The notes beneath the pieces were generated by a model. It was given only the letters and a program-made list of their open reading frames with translations, did no database searches and had not been told where the DNA came from. DNA of 64,000 nt from an uncultured Gammaproteobacteria bacterium. GTDB taxonomy: Bacteria; Pseudomonadota; Gammaproteobacteria; JAADHQ01. This document shows, piece by piece, positions 11,194 to 48,080 of the stretch; the first letter of the stretch is position 1; each line of letters starts with the position of its first letter. Both the position numbers and the translations under genes were made by a program. The stretch is taken from the NCBI GenBank assembly GCA_947258755.1, contig CAMYJO010000011.1, forward strand, positions 1-64,000. The letters are read 5' to 3'.

Positions 11194-14100
11194 ATGCCAA
11201 AAAGAACTGACATACAAAGCATCTTGATTATCGGCGCCGGGCCTATCATCATCGGTCAGGCCTGCGAGTTTGATTACTCCGGTGCGCAGGCGTGCAAGTC
11301 ATTGCGCGAAGAGGGCTATAAGGTCATCCTGGTAAATTCGAATCCGGCAACTATCATGACCGACCCGGAAACCGCCGATGTCGTTTATATCGAACCGATC
11401 AACTGGAAAACTGTCGCCCGTATTATTGAAAAGGAGCGTCCGGATGCATTGTTGCCGACCATGGGTGGGCAAACGGCGCTGAACTGTGCGTTGGACCTGG
11501 ATCGCGAAGGCGTACTGGAGCAATTCAATGTAGAGATGATCGGTGCCGACAAGAACGCAATCGACAAGGCCGAGGACCGCGATCGTTTCCGTCAGGCCAT
11601 GCAAAAGATTGGCCTCGATATGCCGCGTTCATCGATTGCACATAGCATGGAAGAGGCGCATCAGGTGCAGGTGCAGATCGGTTTTCCGACTGTCATCAGG
11701 CCGTCGTTCACAATGGGCGGTAGTGGCGGTGGTATTGCCTATAACCGCGAAGAGTTCGTCGAGATCTGTGAGCGCGGACTGGATCTGTCACCGACCAACG
11801 AACTATTGATTGAAGAATCCATCGTTGGCTGGAAAGAATACGAAATGGAAGTGGTGCGTGATCATAAGGACAATTGCATTATTATTTGTTCGATCGAGAA
11901 TTTTGACCCAATGGGCGTGCACACCGGCGATTCGATTACGGTCGCGCCTGCGCAAACCCTGACCGATAAGGAATACCAGATCATGCGAGACGCCTCATTG
12001 GCTGTGCTCCGTGAGATCGGTGTTGATACCGGTGGTTCCAATGTACAGTTCTCGATCAATCCTGACAATGGACGCATGATCATTATCGAAATGAATCCAC
12101 GTGTGTCGCGCTCGTCGGCGCTGGCATCCAAGGCGACCGGTTTTCCAATCGCCAAGGTGGCGGCCAAGCTGGCGGTTGGCTATACCCTGGATGAATTGCA
12201 AAACGAAATCACTGGCGGGGCAATGCCAGCATCGTTCGAACCGAGTATTGATTATGTGGTCACCAAGGTGCCACGTTTTACCTTTGAAAAATTTCCGCAG
12301 GCAGATGCCAGGCTGACCACACAAATGAAGTCTGTCGGTGAAGTCATGGCCATTGGCCGCACCTTTCAAGAGTCATTGCAAAAGGCTTTACGCGGACTGG
12401 AAGTCGGTGTTGACGGCCTTAATGAAAAGCTCGATCTCAGTGGTGAGGGAGTCGAATCTCACCTGCGTCGAGAATTACAGGTGCCAGGTGCTGAGCGTCT
12501 TTGGTATGTCGCTGATGCAATGCGTTTTGGTATGACATGCGAACAGATTTTTGATCTGTGCAAAATTGATCCATGGTTCCTGGTGCAAATCGAGGAATTG
12601 GTCCTGCTTGAAGATGAGATCCGCCAACAGGGCGAAGCGAGTCTGGAGAAAGATCGCTTATATTACCTTAAACGCAAGGGCTTCTCTGATCGGCGCCTGT
12701 CCAGTCTGCTGGGTAAGAGCGAAGACCAGATTCGCGCGATTCGGCATAAACTCGATATCCATCCGGTCTACAAACGTGTCGATACCTGTGCGGCGGAGTT
12801 TGCCTCGAGTACGGCCTATCAATACTCGACCTATGAAGAGGAATGCGAGGCCGATCCGAGTGCGCGCGACAAGATCGTCGTGCTCGGTGGTGGGCCGAAT
12901 CGTATCGGTCAGGGCATCGAGTTTGATTATTGCTGTGTGCATGCAGCGCTGGCTATGCGTGAAGACGGTTATGAAACCATTATGGTGAACTGTAATCCAG
13001 AGACAGTATCGACGGATTATGACACTTCTGACCGACTCTACTTTGAGCCGTTGACGCTGGAAGATGTACTGGAAATTATTAACAAAGAGAAACCGAAAGG
13101 CGTGATAGTGCAGTATGGCGGGCAGACGCCGTTGAAGCTTGCGCGTGCATTGGAAGCGGCCGGCACACCAATAATTGGTACAACACCGGATTCCATTGAT
13201 CTGGCCGAGGACCGTGAACGCTTCCAGCAAATGGTCAATGACCTGGATCTGTTGCAGCCGCCGAATCGTACCGCGCGTACCGAAGAAGAGGCTATGCAGC
13301 TGGCACGTGAGATTGATTTCCCGCTGGTGGTCCGGCCTTCGTATGTGCTCGGTGGTCGCGCCATGGAAATTGTTTACTCGGAAGAAGATCTTGCCCGTTA
13401 TATGCGCGAGGCCGTGCAGGTCTCGAATGAATCGCCGGTGTTGCTGGATCATTTCCTCGACAATGCTGTCGAGGTTGATGTTGATGCGATCTGCGATGGA
13501 GAAGATGTGTTGATAGGCGGTATTATGGAACACATCGAACAGGCCGGTGTGCATTCGGGCGACTCTGCCTGTTCCTTACCCCCGTATACACTTAGTCCAG
13601 AAGTACAGGATACCTTGCGTCAGCAAATGACTAGCATGGCGCATAGCCTGAAGGTCGTTGGTCTGATGAATGCACAGTTTGCGATCCAGGATGGCAAGGT
13701 CTATATCATCGAGGTCAATCCGCGTGCCTCGCGCACGGTACCGTTTGTATCCAAGGCCATCGGCATTCCGTTGGCGAAGATTGCCGCACGATGCATGGTT
13801 GGTCAAACCCTTAAGCAGCAAGGCGTCACTAAAGAAATCGTTCCGCCTTATTATGCCGTCAAGGAAGCGGTGTTCCCGTTTGTTAAATTCCCGGGCGTGG
13901 ACCCATTATTAGGACCGGAAATGAAATCGACCGGAGAAGTGATGGGTGTAGGGCGTAGCTTTGGTGAGGCCTTCAGTAAGGCCCAGGCAGGCGCTGGTGT
14001 TGATTTGCCGACGCAGGGGCAGGCTTTTGTGAGTGTGCGTGAGCGTGATCGGGACGCGGCCGTTGAGATTGCTAGACAATTACATGATCTGGGTTTTAAA

Positions 14101-43190: not shown

Positions 43191-45152
43191 ATGCAGTTGA
43201 GACAGAAACTATTCCTTGTTCTGGGTCTGATGGCTCTGGTACCACTGTTGTTTCTTCTATTTGGTGTTGCTGGCCATATTGAACAGGATCTGGAAGACAG
43301 CACCGGCAAAGAGATTGGCAAGACCCTTGGCAAGCTTTCACATGAGCTGTCCAGCTTGCTGGATAATCAGAAATCGATTGTCCAGGGCCTGGCCAAGGTA
43401 CCGGTGGTCAGGGATTTTGCGGCGTCTATATCGGCCACCGACAACACGGCCGTATATGAGCGCAAAGTCACCAATCTCATGGCCTTTTTTCTTAATTATC
43501 AGTCCACTGTGCCGAGCATTCAGGCGATCAGGTTTACCGATACGCAGGGCAAGGCACTTGTCAAGATAAAGGAAGGTCAGCTGATCCCGCTTGAGAAAAA
43601 ACTCGATAATGGCAGACTGTATGTTGAAGACCTTGCCGCCAAGCCCTTTTTCCGCTGGGCTCAAAAAACAGATGAGGATATTTCCATCTCTGATTTTGAA
43701 CGTGGCCAGGTCTCGGGCGAGGTCGACTTTTGTCCTGCGATGGTGCGCTATAGCGTACCGATCAGGGATGAGCTTGAATCGCCTCTGGGCATGCTGATAG
43801 TCAATATGTGGGGATTGCGAATCGACGATGCCGTTGAGGCCGCACTGGCAGGCTATCCCGGACAGGCCTATATTGTTGAAATTAATAAGGACCAGGACAG
43901 GGATGGTATCTACCTTTATCATCAGGATGCCGATAAACGTTTCTCCAACCAGCTTGGAACTTCGATCCGATTTTCAACGGATATTGGTGACAAGTTATGG
44001 CAGCAGATTAAGGATGGATCTCGAACAGGTATGGTAGCGACAGAGCAGGATCAGTATGTCTATTACCATAAATTATCTCCCTTCCAGGAGCGCGATACGC
44101 GTTGGTTGCTGGTCATCGAAATGGCCAGGGATACTATCCTGGCCCCTATCCTAGATCTGAAAAACTGGATTGTGTACCTGATTTTACTTGTCGTTATTGT
44201 CAGTCTAATCATGGCGCGATGGGCTGCATCGCGGCTGTCGAAACCGGTGCATGATCTGGCGCAGATCATAACGCGCTATGCGGATGGTGATCGCAAGGTA
44301 CATTATAGTGATGACCGTCGTGATGAGATTGGTCTTGCCGGCAAGGCGTTTAACTACCTGACCAATAAATTGGAAAAAACCCAGAAACAACGCATTAAAG
44401 CTGAACTTACGGCGAGACAATCCGAGCGTCTGGCAGCGGTTGGACAAATGGCAGCAGGCATAGGACATGAGATCAATAATCCCTTAATGAATATTATGTC
44501 ACTGGCTTCATTGGTGGAGAAGAGTGTGCCTGAGCAGGACGAGCAAATGAAGGATGATCTCAAGGCCCTGCAAAATGAGGGTGAACGCTGTGCGCGTATT
44601 GTTCAGGGCGTTCTTAATTTTGCCAGGGAAAACAAGCCAAAATATGAAGAGTTTGATTTTTCTAAATTGATGCGGGAAACAGCGGCCATATTTGAACATC
44701 GTTTGCGCAACTCAAATATTAGTTTGTTGCTGGACCTCGATGGGCCTTTGATCATGCAAGGTGATTCAAGCCAGTTACAACAGGTTCTGGTCAATGTGGT
44801 TATCAATGCCTTGCATGCCTCACAGCCTGGTTCTGAAATTATCATGCGCGCACGCGAGGCAGATGGAAAAATAATGGCAGAAATTCTAGATAACGGTAAT
44901 GGCATCAGTGATGATAATCTCGCCCGTGCTTTCAGCCCGTTTTTCACAACAAAACCGGAAGGTTCGGGCACAGGGCTGGGGCTTTCCGTTAGTTATGGCA
45001 TTATTAGAAAGCATGGTGGATCTATCGTGCTGGAAAACAGGCCGCAGGGAGGGGTCAGGGTTGAAATAATCCTGCCCCGATCGAGTTCGAATGAGGAAAC
45101 AATGATGGCAGAAATGGACTTAGTATCCGAGGTTGGCAATGAAGGAAAATAA
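43191..45152 (+). CDS. Membrane sensor histidine kinase
   Basis: 653 residues. The N-terminal span (about 8-26) and a second span (about 329-347) enclose a ~300-residue periplasmic sensor region, probably dCache-like by size and by VRYSVPIRDELESPLGMLIVN. Then come HAMP, HisKA with the phospho-acceptor His at 426 (GIGHEINNPLMNIM), and a HATPase with N box in NVVINALHASQ, G1 DNGNGISDDN and GTGLGLSVSYGIIRKHGG. The GHEINNPL form is typical of NtrB/AtoS-type kinases that pair with sigma-54 regulators. It overlaps the next gene, which encodes exactly such a regulator. No Shine-Dalgarno is seen. The ligand is unknown. Confidence 0.93.
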   Translation: MQLRQKLFLVLGLMALVPLLFLLFGVAGHIEQDLEDSTGKEIGKTLGKLSHELSSLLDNQKSIVQGLAKVPVVRDFAASISATDNTAVYERKVTNLMAFFLNYQSTVPSIQAIRFTDTQGKALVKIKEGQLIPLEKKLDNGRLYVEDLAAKPFFRWAQKTDEDISISDFERGQVSGEVDFCPAMVRYSVPIRDELESPLGMLIVNMWGLRIDDAVEAALAGYPGQAYIVEINKDQDRDGIYLYHQDADKRFSNQLGTSIRFSTDIGDKLWQQIKDGSRTGMVATEQDQYVYYHKLSPFQERDTRWLLVIEMARDTILAPILDLKNWIVYLILLVVIVSLIMARWAASRLSKPVHDLAQIITRYADGDRKVHYSDDRRDEIGLAGKAFNYLTNKLEKTQKQRIKAELTARQSERLAAVGQMAAGIGHEINNPLMNIMSLASLVEKSVPEQDEQMKDDLKALQNEGERCARIVQGVLNFARENKPKYEEFDFSKLMRETAAIFEHRLRNSNISLLLDLDGPLIMQGDSSQLQQVLVNVVINALHASQPGSEIIMRAREADGKIMAEILDNGNGISDDNLARAFSPFFTTKPEGSGTGLGLSVSYGIIRKHGGSIVLENRPQGGVRVEIILPRSSSNEETMMAEMDLVSEVGNEGK

Positions 45153-46506
45153 GAATACAAGGATTTTGTTTGTTGATGATGACTCGGTGACCTGTTCGGT
45201 CATGCAACGAAACTGTGACCGAGTCGGTTATAGTTGTCATGTTTATCAGTCTGCAAAAGAGTGCTTGGCTGACTTTGAAAAGAATGGGGCAGACATGTTG
45301 GTGACCGATCTGCGTATGCCCGAGATGAGTGGCTTTGAATTACTTGGAAATGTCAGGGAAATCGATAAAGACATTCCTGTTTTGGTGATGACCGGTTATT
45401 CGTCAGTGGAAAATGCGGTGGAAGCAATGAAACTGGGCGCCACCGATTTTATTAAAAAACCATTCGATTTTGAGGAATTGAAGCTGATAATCGACCGTAA
45501 CCTGAGTGCAATGCGACTACAGGATGAAAATGAATTATTACGGAAACGTCTGCAGACAGGCCGCAACCGCTTTGGCATGATAGGTGATACGCCGGTGATG
45601 AAGACTCTGTTTTCAACAATCGAGAAGGTGGCTACGGTCAGCTGTAACGTGATAATCAGTGGTGAATCCGGAACCGGTAAGGAACTGGTTGCACGCGCCT
45701 TACATGATTACAGTCCGCGTAAGGATGCACCCTTTGTTGTCATCGACTGTGGCGCCTTGACCGAAACCCTGCTTGAGAGTGAGTTGTTCGGTCATGAGAA
45801 AGGTTCATTCACCGGTGCGACGCAAAGAAAGCGCGGCTTGATGGAGCAGGCCAGTGGCGGCACTTTATTTCTCGACGAGATATGCAATATAAGCGACTCG
45901 ATGCAAATGAAGTTGATGCGCGCACTGGAGAGCCAGACCATTACCCGAGTCGGCAGTACGCAGGGAATCCCAATCGATTTGCGCGTGATTGCCGCCAGTA
46001 ATCGTGATCTCGAGGCGATGGTCAAGAAAGGTGAATTTAGGCACGATTTCTATCATCGCCTGAACGTAGTCAATATTCACGTTCCTTCCTTGAGTGAACG
46101 GCGCGAGGATATACCTTCTCTGATAGAATATTTTGTGCAGGAATTTACCGAACGTTACCAACGACCGATCAAGGGTTTTGATACGGTGTCAATGAACAAC
46201 CTGTATCAGGCCGAGTGGTCAGGTAATATTCGCGAGTTGAAGAATATTGTCGAGCGTTGTGTGATATTGTCAGACAAGCCGGTGATGACCTGGCCAGAAA
46301 AACTATCAACAGCCATGGAAGTTGATGACAACCAAGGTATTCAGTTCCCGCAAGAGGATTTCCCGTCATTGGAAGAACTCGAGCAGGAATATATTGAACA
46401 TGTACTGGAATTATCGGGCGGAAAAAAGACCAAGGCCGCGGATATTCTCGGCATTGACAAGACCACGCTATGGCGAAAATTACGTCGCTTCAGTGAGGCA
46501 GAATAG
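45139..46506 (+). CDS. Sigma-54-dependent response regulator (NtrC family)
   Basis: 455 residues from ATG 45139, six bases after GAGG. Receiver domain: acidic pocket in FVDDDSV, phospho-acceptor Asp57 in LVTDLRMPEMSG, and Lys in FIKKPFDF. AAA+ domain: Walker A GESGTGKE, sigma-54 contact loop GSFTGA (canonical GAFTGA with Ala to Ser), Walker B TLFLDEI and an Arg-finger region. A Fis-type helix-turn-helix lies at the C-terminus (KTKAADILGIDKTTLWRKLR). It overlaps the kinase gene by 14 nt. A matching -24/-12 promoter lies 131 nt downstream, before the DsrE-like lipoprotein gene, which is the likely target. Confidence 0.95.
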   Translation: MKENKNTRILFVDDDSVTCSVMQRNCDRVGYSCHVYQSAKECLADFEKNGADMLVTDLRMPEMSGFELLGNVREIDKDIPVLVMTGYSSVENAVEAMKLGATDFIKKPFDFEELKLIIDRNLSAMRLQDENELLRKRLQTGRNRFGMIGDTPVMKTLFSTIEKVATVSCNVIISGESGTGKELVARALHDYSPRKDAPFVVIDCGALTETLLESELFGHEKGSFTGATQRKRGLMEQASGGTLFLDEICNISDSMQMKLMRALESQTITRVGSTQGIPIDLRVIAASNRDLEAMVKKGEFRHDFYHRLNVVNIHVPSLSERREDIPSLIEYFVQEFTERYQRPIKGFDTVSMNNLYQAEWSGNIRELKNIVERCVILSDKPVMTWPEKLSTAMEVDDNQGIQFPQEDFPSLEELEQEYIEHVLELSGGKKTKAADILGIDKTTLWRKLRRFSEAE

Positions 46507-46525
46507 GGCATTTTACAGTGTTATT

Positions 46526-46550
46526 GTTGCACTATTCTGCATATTGCAAC
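46526..46550. promoter_or_regulatory. Candidate enhancer (UAS) for the sigma-54 regulator
   Basis: Inverted repeat GTTGCA (46526-46531), 13 nt, TGCAAC (46545-46550). It lies about 115-140 bp upstream of the predicted start of the sigma-54 promoter at 46638, the usual distance for an enhancer-binding protein. A related 12-mer, TGCAATTTGCAA, lies before the kinase gene (43159-43170). Binding is inferred, not shown. Confidence 0.45.
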
Positions 46551-46637
46551 TACCTATAATGGCATTTACTTATTTATTAATATTAATTAAATGAATAAGT
46601 TACTGATAAATCGAAATTATAAAATAATTTGCAAACC

Positions 46638-46652
46638 TGGAATAGAGTTTGC
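46638..46652 (+). promoter_or_regulatory. Sigma-54 (RpoN) -24/-12 promoter
   Basis: TGGAATAGAGTTTGC: the TGG and TTGC blocks stand at the exact spacing of the consensus TGGCACG-N4-TTGC. Invariant GG and GC are present; the CACG part is not matched. The predicted start is near 46664, about 66 nt before the lipoprotein ATG. A gene for an NtrC-type activator lies directly upstream. Confidence 0.65.
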
Positions 46653-46660
46653 TATTAATA

Positions 46661-46698
46661 CTAGGTACAAACCTAGTAATATTTAGGTACAGACCTAG
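46661..46698. promoter_or_regulatory. Two tandem 16-bp palindromes in the lipoprotein leader
   Basis: CTAGGTACAAACCTAG (46661-46676) is a perfect 6-bp inverted repeat around ACAA. TTAGGTACAGACCTAG (46683-46698) is the same with one mismatch. Their starts are 22 bp apart, two helical turns. They lie at and just after the predicted sigma-54 transcription start and before the ribosome site AGGAGGA (46714-46720), so they could be a double operator or two mRNA hairpins. Confidence 0.75.
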
Positions 46699-46729
46699 AA
46701 TAATTATCCTGTTAGGAGGAGTCAACTAC

Positions 46730-47182
46730 ATGAAGAAGTTAACAGCAATTGCAACTACCGCATTAATCAGTGCTACCCTTATTGGCTGTACTGATCAAGA
46801 GTTAAAACCTGCCAAGAACGGTTATCACCAGCAAAAAGTGGTTTACCATGTTAACAATCTGCAGACTGCCAATGGCGCCCTGCGTAATGTTAAAAACCAT
46901 CTTAATGCCCTGGGTGATAAGAATGCAGAGATCATTGTCGTCACGCATTCCAGCGGTGCATTTTCCATGGTTGAAGGAACCAAGGACAAGAAGGGTAATT
47001 CTTTCGAAGATACCATTCAAAAACTGGCAAACCGTGGCGTTAAATTCACTATCTGTGCTAACACCATTCGCGGCAAGAAAATCGATAAAAACAGAATCAA
47101 CCTGAATGCGAAGGTTATTCCATCAGGTGTTGCTGAGGTTGCTGAACTGCAGCAGAAGGGCTATCTGTACGTTAAGCCTTAA
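46730..47182 (+). CDS. DsrE-like lipoprotein
   Basis: 150 residues from ATG 46730, nine bases after AGGAGGA. A lipoprotein signal peptide ends in the lipobox LIGC with lipidated Cys20. The rest (KVVYHVNNLQTANGALRNVK to EIIVVTHSSGAFSMVEG and KFTICANTIRGKKI) follows the DsrE/DsrF-like fold, including a conserved Cys in the TICANT segment, similar to small COG1416-type proteins. DsrE-family Cys residues carry sulfane sulfur in some members; a periplasmic role here is inferred. It is a single-gene unit under a sigma-54-type promoter, with its own terminator. Confidence 0.8.
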   Translation: MKKLTAIATTALISATLIGCTDQELKPAKNGYHQQKVVYHVNNLQTANGALRNVKNHLNALGDKNAEIIVVTHSSGAFSMVEGTKDKKGNSFEDTIQKLANRGVKFTICANTIRGKKIDKNRINLNAKVIPSGVAEVAELQQKGYLYVKP

Positions 47183-47209
47183 TCTGATAGATCATAATCA
47201 GACCAATCG

Positions 47210-47238
47210 ACGGGTGCTTTAGGCACCCGTTTTTTTTT
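47210..47238 (+). terminator. Intrinsic terminator after the DsrE-like lipoprotein
   Basis: ACGGGTGC (47210-47217), loop TTTAG, GCACCCGT (47223-47230), then T-run to 47238. Strong rho-independent terminator 28 nt after the stop. Confidence 0.93.
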
Positions 47239-47259
47239 ATGAAAAAAGCCCTGCGCCCC

Positions 47260-47288
47260 TTGAAAATAAACAGGTAGCCCTGTAAGAT
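47260..47288 (+). promoter_or_regulatory. Promoter of tRNA-fMet
   Basis: TTGAAA (47260-47265), 17-nt spacer, TAAGAT (47283-47288), followed by a GC-rich discriminator (GCGCTCTCG) typical of stringently controlled stable-RNA promoters. The tRNA starts 17 nt later. Confidence 0.75.
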
Positions 47289-47304
47289 GCGCTCTCGTTG
47301 TTAG

Positions 47305-47381
47305 TGCGGGGTGGAGCAGTCTGGCAGCTCGTCGGGCTCATAACCCGAAGGTCACAGGTTCGAATCCTGTCCCCGCTACCA
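47305..47381 (+). tRNA. Initiator tRNA-fMet (CAT)
   Basis: 77 nt with encoded CCA (47379-47381). Anticodon CAT lies in loop CTCATAA, flanked by three G-C pairs (GGG/CCC), the hallmark of initiators. Position 1-72 is unpaired (T-T), as required for formylation. The T-arm is GGTTCGAATCC. It has its own promoter and terminator, so it is a separate transcription unit, unlike the metY-rimP arrangement of E. coli. Confidence 0.96.
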
Positions 47382-47392
47382 CTATTTATAAT

Positions 47393-47425
47393 AAAACCAG
47401 ACGGTTACAGCCGACTGGTTTTTTT
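47393..47425 (+). terminator. Intrinsic terminator of tRNA-fMet
   Basis: AAAACCAG (47393-47400) pairs with CTGGTTTT (47415-47422), with an inner CGG/CCG pair-set across an A-A mismatch, and a T-run to 47425. Confidence 0.88.
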
Positions 47426-47576
47426 ATGTCAGTCGTCCAGTAATTGCTTAGTAGTATAATGTTCCCGATTCTCACGCTTCTGGCCAGTTATGCTGGAAAC
47501 GGCCTATTTTTTAGCAAAGCAGATGTTTATTGCCTGATGATTTCTAAGCAGGTACAGTGAACAGAAGTTGGAAGTC

Positions 47577-48080
47577 ATGTCACGAAGCACTATGGATCAA
47601 TGGTATGTCATAAGGACCAAACCCCGTCAGGAACAAGTAGCCCTTGAAAACCTGCAGCGGCAGGATTATCGATGTTTTTATCCCAGAATAAAACAAATGC
47701 AGAGAAGGCGCGGCAAAAGACAGTTGTGTATCGAGGCATTGTTTCCTGGATATCTGTTTGTCAAACTTAACCTGGATGTTACCAACACCGCGCCAATTCG
47801 GTCGACGCGTGGCGTTACAGGGCTGGTCATGTTTGGTACTGAAATCAGGCCAATCGCGGACGAGGTAATATCAGCAATACAAGGTAAGGCAGATCAACTG
47901 GGTATTATTGAAGATGATCAGGCAGAATTCAGGGCAGGGCAGCAGGTGCGCATTGAATCAGGCGCGATGCAGGGACTGGAAGCGATATTCCAGCAAAAAA
48001 GTGGTCAAGATCGGGCTATCTTATTGTTAAATTTAATGGGTGCCGAACGCACAGTTGAAATAGCGTTGTCGGACCTATAG
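47577..48080 (+). CDS. RfaH-like NusG paralogue (transcription antitermination protein)
   Basis: 167 residues from ATG 47577; TTG 47568 or ATG 47592 are alternatives. The NGN domain opens QWYVIRTKPRQEQVALENLQ and contains IEALFPGYLFVKLNL; a C-terminal KOW-like domain contains FRAGQQVRIESGAMQGLEAIF. This is the RfaH/NusG-specialised layout; RfaH is recruited at ops sites and increases expression of long surface-polysaccharide or secretion operons. No ops-like GGCGGTAG was seen in the window, so its target is elsewhere or it is diverged. The next gene is an outer-membrane barrel, 292 nt on, which could be a partner. Confidence 0.85.
   Translation: MSRSTMDQWYVIRTKPRQEQVALENLQRQDYRCFYPRIKQMQRRRGKRQLCIEALFPGYLFVKLNLDVTNTAPIRSTRGVTGLVMFGTEIRPIADEVISAIQGKADQLGIIEDDQAEFRAGQQVRIESGAMQGLEAIFQQKSGQDRAILLLNLMGAERTVEIALSDL

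Follow-up and report, generated by a model that had tools for sequence, protein, structure and literature searches.

Tandem palindromes at the predicted start of a sigma-54-dependent lipoprotein transcript: a possible 5'-terminal hairpin in a recurrent gammaproteobacterial module

The window, that is, the whole stretch of 64,000 nucleotides analysed here, comes from an uncultured gammaproteobacterium and contains the genes of a sensor kinase and of a sigma-54 activator, followed by a short intergenic region and by the gene of a DsrE-family lipoprotein. The features of the locus are the following.

43191-45152, + strand: sensor histidine kinase (dCache-like, HAMP, HisKA and HATPase_c by Pfam, dCache_1 slightly below cut-off)
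45133-46506, + strand: NtrC-type response regulator and sigma-54 activator with a Fis-type HTH (Pfam Response_reg, Sigma54_activat, HTH_8)
46538-46548, + strand: probable enhancer site TGCATATTGCA (TGCA-N3-TGCA), conserved upstream of orthologous promoters
46638-46652, + strand: sigma-54 promoter TGGAATAGAGTTTGC, with the -24 GG at 46639-46640, the -12 GC at 46651-46652 and 10 nt between them, conserved in orthologs
46661-46676, + strand: palindrome 1, CTAGGTACAAACCTAG, perfect, with 6-bp arms and a 4-nt spacer, spanning the predicted +1
46664-46695, + strand: predicted 5'-terminal stem-loop if +1 is 46664, with stems GGU/ACC and ACCUAG/UUAGGU
46683-46698, + strand: palindrome 2, TTAGGTACAGACCTAG, with a T/G mismatch at the outer pair and perfect arms of 5 bp
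46713-46722, + strand: strong Shine-Dalgarno sequence TAGGAGGAGT, with similar sites in orthologs
46730-47182, + strand: DsrE-family lipoprotein gene, 150 aa (PF02635, E 1.2e-11), with a lipobox-like N-terminus read from the sequence

Judged by its letters and by its conservation in orthologs, the promoter is of the activator-dependent sigma-54 type, as had been proposed from the sequence of the window. Transcription from such promoters usually begins 12 nt from the -12 GC, which here would place +1 at about 46664, in the left arm of palindrome 1. The palindromes had been described as lying right after the start, and this is wrong: the predicted +1 falls inside the first of them. An imperfect inverted repeat, ATAATTTGCAAAC / GTTTGCTATTAAT (46624-46659), also flanks the -24 element. 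An Rfam scan of 46500-47450 returned no leader or riboswitch family; it matched the tRNA gene at 47305-47378, plus one far-sub-cut-off match on the opposite strand, outside the leader. The tRNA gene is followed by a gene for an RfaH-type antiterminator (47568-48080, TIGR01955 above cut-off).

The arrangement recurs in orthologous loci (L003-L101), where the DsrE lipoprotein gene is accompanied by an NtrC-type activator gene and by a sigma-54 promoter with a TGCA-N3-TGCA site some 100 bp before it. Of 52 orthologous loci, 46 have the activator's DKTTLWRKL-type HTH motif no more than 700 bp upstream. A -24 GG / -12 GC promoter was found in 36 of the 52 (L083, among the other 16, has almost no upstream DNA), and the activator motif is upstream of 35 of these 36 promoters. 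The TGCA-N3-TGCA site stands 85-121 bp upstream of the GG in 33/36, and at 98-102 bp in 24 of those 33, a count that has to be read knowing that the presence of the site was weighted in choosing the promoters. Site and promoter together occur once per genome in all four genomes of the genus, upstream of the DsrE lipoprotein gene; among six more distant genomes one (G005) has two matches and the other five none, and the reversed pattern has no match in any of the ten. With one such combination per genus genome, the regulator apparently has a single neighboring target, and the kinase/activator module looks like a one-target regulator whose activator would act by binding the TGCA-N3-TGCA site. 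AtoSC-, ZraSR- and PEP-CTERM regulator-like systems share with it the kinase, the NtrC-type activator, a palindromic upstream site and the -24/-12 promoter, but they differ in the site, which here is TGCA-N3-TGCA, and in the target, here a DsrE lipoprotein; moreover, the 25 best-matching NCBIfam families were listed for each module protein, and none of their cut-offs was reached.

The statistics on orthologs use these 36 promoters in 27 lineage groups, the groups being assigned by hand. The 16 loci in which no promoter reached the score stand outside them; 11 of these were read and six folded, while L009, in spite of its upstream site, lies outside the folded set. The initial set showed 30 loci. 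Weaker homologs among L010-L031 were excluded (L021 was kept), L047-L050 were taken out as duplicates or near-duplicates, L067 and L070 were dropped and L102 was never included. The hairpin idea was first noticed in part of the data, and a second set of 11 groups was fetched after it arose; L086 and L094 in this second set are kin of L050 and L049, both seen earlier. Searching the orders of G134, G047 and G149 added no locus, and a second class-wide draw added one, L290, which lies at a contig edge and is outside all counts.

The two palindromes form one 22-bp unit repeated directly, with 82% identity and a spacing of 22 bp. The sequence-only reading had described two 16-bp palindromes phased by 22 bp and recurring nowhere else in the window; the coordinates, the spacing and the first palindrome are right, and the second is mismatched at its outer pair. 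Within the window, these two are the sole matches to the motif at up to three mismatches, for 0.20 expected. The arms of palindrome 1 can be extended to 8 bp (TACTAGGT..ACCTAGTA). In the whole 3.2-Mb genome TAGGTACARACCTA is perfect at this leader only, and the 15 matches with at most two mismatches comprise two perfect ones, both here, one with a single mismatch and 12 with two. The single-mismatch copy sits within the coding sequence of a 4Fe-4S membrane protein, which we take to be CcoG-like. An operator regulon was rejected at this point, the reversed control pattern giving 39 and 40 matches on the two strands, more than the motif itself. As for the quality of the stem, 5 of 184 leaders (464 kb of the same genome) hold one that scores at least as well, so that stems of this quality, taken singly, are not uncommon; what is unusual about the palindromes is their duplication and their position. 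The strongest dyad among those leaders is TTAGCACTC-N9-GAGTGCTAA (L105), upstream of the gene at 13620, presumably a CIRCE-type heat-shock operator.

Three genus mates were searched, with proteins 95% (G002), 87% (G003) and 81% (G001) identical to that of the window. All three retain the activator gene, the enhancer site, the promoter and the ribosome site, and in all three the palindromes are absent from leaders that are 19-24 bp shorter than that of the window. As far as the sequence goes, this is the outcome that had been named beforehand as refuting the idea, and together with the absence of other copies in the genome it makes a conserved double operator, as had been suggested from the sequence, unlikely. 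The same observations fit a neutral history, in which an AT-rich leader free of constraint happened to contain a palindrome, slippage in this species doubled it, and the result has no function. The 82% identical tandem repeat, the longer leader and the equally good stems elsewhere in the genome all agree with it, as does our test for a 5'-proximal hairpin (no more than four unpaired bases at the 5' end, folding energy of -3 kcal/mol or lower), which one of the four genus members passes and L003, L004 and L005, the three mates, fail. Where the two copies differ, the TAGGT/ACCTA arms are left untouched, which speaks against neutrality, though weakly, the differences being so few. We hold neutral duplication to be a serious rival, for this species particularly, if on the whole a doubtful one; it leaves aside what is found at the same point in many other lineages.

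Indeed, unrelated inverted repeats occupy the same place elsewhere, such as GCAACCTAGGTTGC (L005), GCACCGttatCGGTGC (L060), GCTTTAGtatCTAAAGC (L064) and AACTTAG-N6-CTAAGTT (L049/L078). Between -13 and the ribosome site, perfect inverted repeats number 12.2 versus 4.2 expected over the 36 promoters in 27 groups (z 4.7; the leader end of L093 was set by hand for this count). The same count gives z -0.6 in the stretch upstream of the promoter, 0.95 at the coding start and 2.7 around the TGCA-N3-TGCA site, which is a dyad in its own right. The excess is present in the first 18 groups (7.5 versus 2.64 expected, 4/1000 shuffles) and in the second set of 11 (6.0 versus 1.56), where 0/1000 shuffles did as well at the main threshold and 28/1000 at the strictest. 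Leaders of the window's genome generally have a slight repeat excess (Z 2.67 over 184), which amounts to 0.20 score units each as against about 1.1 in the orthologous leaders. A common sequence motif was dropped as an explanation, since no shared k-mer clearly stands out in the orthologous leaders; the best 6-mer is found in 3/27 groups, without correction for the number of k-mers. Scanned along the sequence, the perfect-repeat signal is broad, with Z of 2.7-4.6 for starts from -24 to 0 and about 2 at +28 and +32.

These repeats give some ground to a second rival, in which the two dyads across +1 would be bound as DNA, by a repressor dimer or by the activator, and open-complex formation would thereby be blocked or tuned. 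The dyads of the window are 22 bp apart, in phase, and overlap +1, and the ortholog repeats are enriched from -13 onward, with dyads wholly or partly upstream of +1 in L005, L060, L064 and L090. In L005, L060 and L064 the perfect dyads have the G of the -12 GC as their first base and run from -13 to +1, +3 and +4, so that an RNA hairpin cannot explain them. Sigma-54 promoters that carry an additional operator at +1 or downstream of it likewise have dyads over the start; the present case differs from them in that no operator sequence is conserved and the genome offers no further perfect copy. With no copy in the genus mates either, and no k-mer clearly prominent in orthologous leaders, each lineage would require a regulator with a specificity of its own, and we consider a DNA operator rather improbable.

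The folding potential of the transcript is more sharply placed than the repeats. Sliding windows were compared with dinucleotide shuffles over the 36 promoters in 27 groups, with positions given relative to the predicted start. For 28-nt windows on the sense strand, the folding Z is -2.74 at -8, -4.06 at -4, -4.21 at the predicted start, -2.04 at +4 and +0.36 at +8; over starts between -80 and -12 and between +8 and +40 it stays within -1.4 to +2.0. The potential is thus highest for windows starting between -4 and +2, and is gone by +8. Windows of 24 nt give -4.10 at offset 0 and -4.58 at +2, with 0/400 shuffles as good, and at offset 0 still -3.51 without the genus of the window. The second set alone reaches -4.37, and the first set minus the genus (13 groups) is weak, with Z -0.92 at offset 0 and -2.0 at -4 (24 nt). 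A coding control reached -2.18, and the whole leader plus 30 coding bases has no folding excess (Z +0.84); these two figures, like the 1.1 score units given above, were obtained with a misplaced leader end for L093.

Counting hairpins leads to the same position. A 5'-proximal hairpin is found in 10.0 of 27 groups (16/36 promoters) versus 3.37 groups expected, a count equalled in 0/300 shuffles, and at a threshold of -4 kcal/mol in 9.0 versus 2.2 expected. The excess holds when the assumed start is set at -3, 0 or +3 (z 3.2 to 3.9), and is absent when it is moved by -6, +6, +10 or +15. The letters of the hairpins vary from lineage to lineage. The stems of L086, L087 and L089 contain G-U pairs or bulges, which fit RNA better than perfect DNA dyads. 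However, the antisense strand folds about as well as the sense strand, so the two kinds of structure are not cleanly told apart, and the near-equality suits a DNA operator as well; at offset +4 (24 nt) the sense strand is ahead of the antisense, -3.42 versus -1.68. RNAalifold with MAFFT gave no usable consensus for L078/L094/L086/L050 because the arms were misaligned.

Six further orthologs, from two genera (L091, L092, L095, L096, L081 and L082), have the upstream site and a GG 103-106 bp away without a canonical -12 GC, and each folds into a hairpin at the assumed +1, at -2.9 to -12.3 kcal/mol. Their promoter positions were hand-picked after the hairpins had been seen, so they serve as an illustration, outside the statistics, and not as a test.

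Other sigma-54 promoters, drawn from the genus and 13 genomes of G126's order, served as controls, part of the listed sites being fetched; 169 distinct sites in the fetched stretches yielded 62 promoter-like and 61 non-redundant ones, of which 53 were long enough for the hairpin count. They were selected by the TGGCAY consensus, whereas TGGAA is what most orthologs read. These 61 promoters have no significant folding excess at offset 0 (Z 0.45 for 24 nt, -0.09 for 28 nt), and their hairpins are in small, non-significant excess (12/53 versus 9.1 expected). Orthologs fold better than controls by a one-sided Mann-Whitney test (p 0.0017 for 24 nt, 0.010 for 28 nt) and differ from them by Welch's t (0.012 and 0.019, respectively). 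Also, 13 sigma-54 promoters of the genus hold 2 dyads versus 1.9 expected. A hairpin as a general trait of sigma-54 leaders thus finds support neither in the 13 genus promoters nor in the 61 controls.

The controls bear on two of the rivals. Neutral duplication does not account for a structure excess at the same point in many lineages, nor for the lack of a significant one at 61 other sigma-54 promoters. A third rival is mutational: template switching in the melted promoter could perfect quasi-palindromes near +1, producing recurrent unrelated dyads with no selection at all. The dyads do vary by lineage and sit near the melted region, and the signal is nearly strand-symmetric. Yet the 61 control promoters, presumably melted alike, are without significant excess, and hairpins are similar within one genus (L081/L082, and L091, L092, L095 and L096, although the RNAalifold consensus of the latter four lacked the hairpin that each forms singly). 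We regard mutation bias as quite improbable.

For the window itself, the folding depends on where transcription begins. An RNA from 46664 to 46712 folds at -8.9 kcal/mol (z -0.90), little better than shuffles, and one starting at 46660 at -14.3 kcal/mol (z -2.77). In the model, a start near 46664 would give one nested hairpin, ending about 17 nt short of the Shine-Dalgarno sequence, and a start near 46660 two tandem hairpins. The sequence-only reading had offered, as its alternative to an operator, an RNA with two hairpins before the ribosome site; the position-specific folding across the family is in favor of leader hairpins, of which there would be one, and nested, if +1 is about 46664.

The account that we favor, tentatively and as somewhat short of an even chance, is that the transcript of a dedicated sigma-54 target carries a hairpin-forming segment at its very beginning, of which the palindromes are the form taken in this species, and that this segment is probably a 5' stabilizer like that of ompA. 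In this scenario, the kinase and the NtrC-type regulator would act through the TGCA-N3-TGCA site about 100 bp upstream and switch on the adjoining DsrE lipoprotein gene. The mRNA would start with a stem-loop, preceded by a few unpaired bases at most and with the strong ribosome site after it. If ompA is a guide, pairing at the 5' end would slow the attack of RppH and RNase E and lengthen the life of the transcript; a promoter that leaks little could then yield much protein once triggered. The stem of this species would have come with the 22-bp duplication. A broader claim, that selection asks of the mRNA start of this one-target module to be a hairpin whatever its letters, so that the stem is remade from unrelated sequence in each lineage and stays locked to +1, is in our view conceivable and rather doubtful.

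The ompA stabilizer requires few unpaired 5' bases. In reviews (among PMC12316311, PMC3997798 and PMC7509114), 5'-terminal stem-loops are described as protecting ompA and papA mRNA, and a strong Shine-Dalgarno sequence as playing a part in ompA. Besides ompA and papA of Escherichia coli, the 5' UTR stem-loops of Acinetobacter recA and Helicobacter vacA also lie a few bases from the 5' end, as the predicted one of the DsrE leader would, and the likeness to ompA would extend to the strong Shine-Dalgarno sequence after the stem-loop and to an mRNA that codes for an envelope protein. The segment may work as a stabilizer of the ompA type. Unlike such stabilizers, the predicted DsrE leader hairpin is tied to one sigma-54 promoter and is made of unrelated sequences across lineages. 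A literature search found no report of such a hairpin, which does not prove its absence in print.

A recurrent kinase/activator/DsrE-lipoprotein module of Gammaproteobacteria is defined by these data, and its leader is a clean test case because the -12 element allows +1 to be predicted. If the broader claim above is true, the module would contain a leader element that keeps only its position and its pairing, and that searches for conserved motifs or RNA families would miss. It would stand as a sequence-free regulatory element defined by position, through which a tight sigma-54 switch is coupled with a long-lived mRNA.
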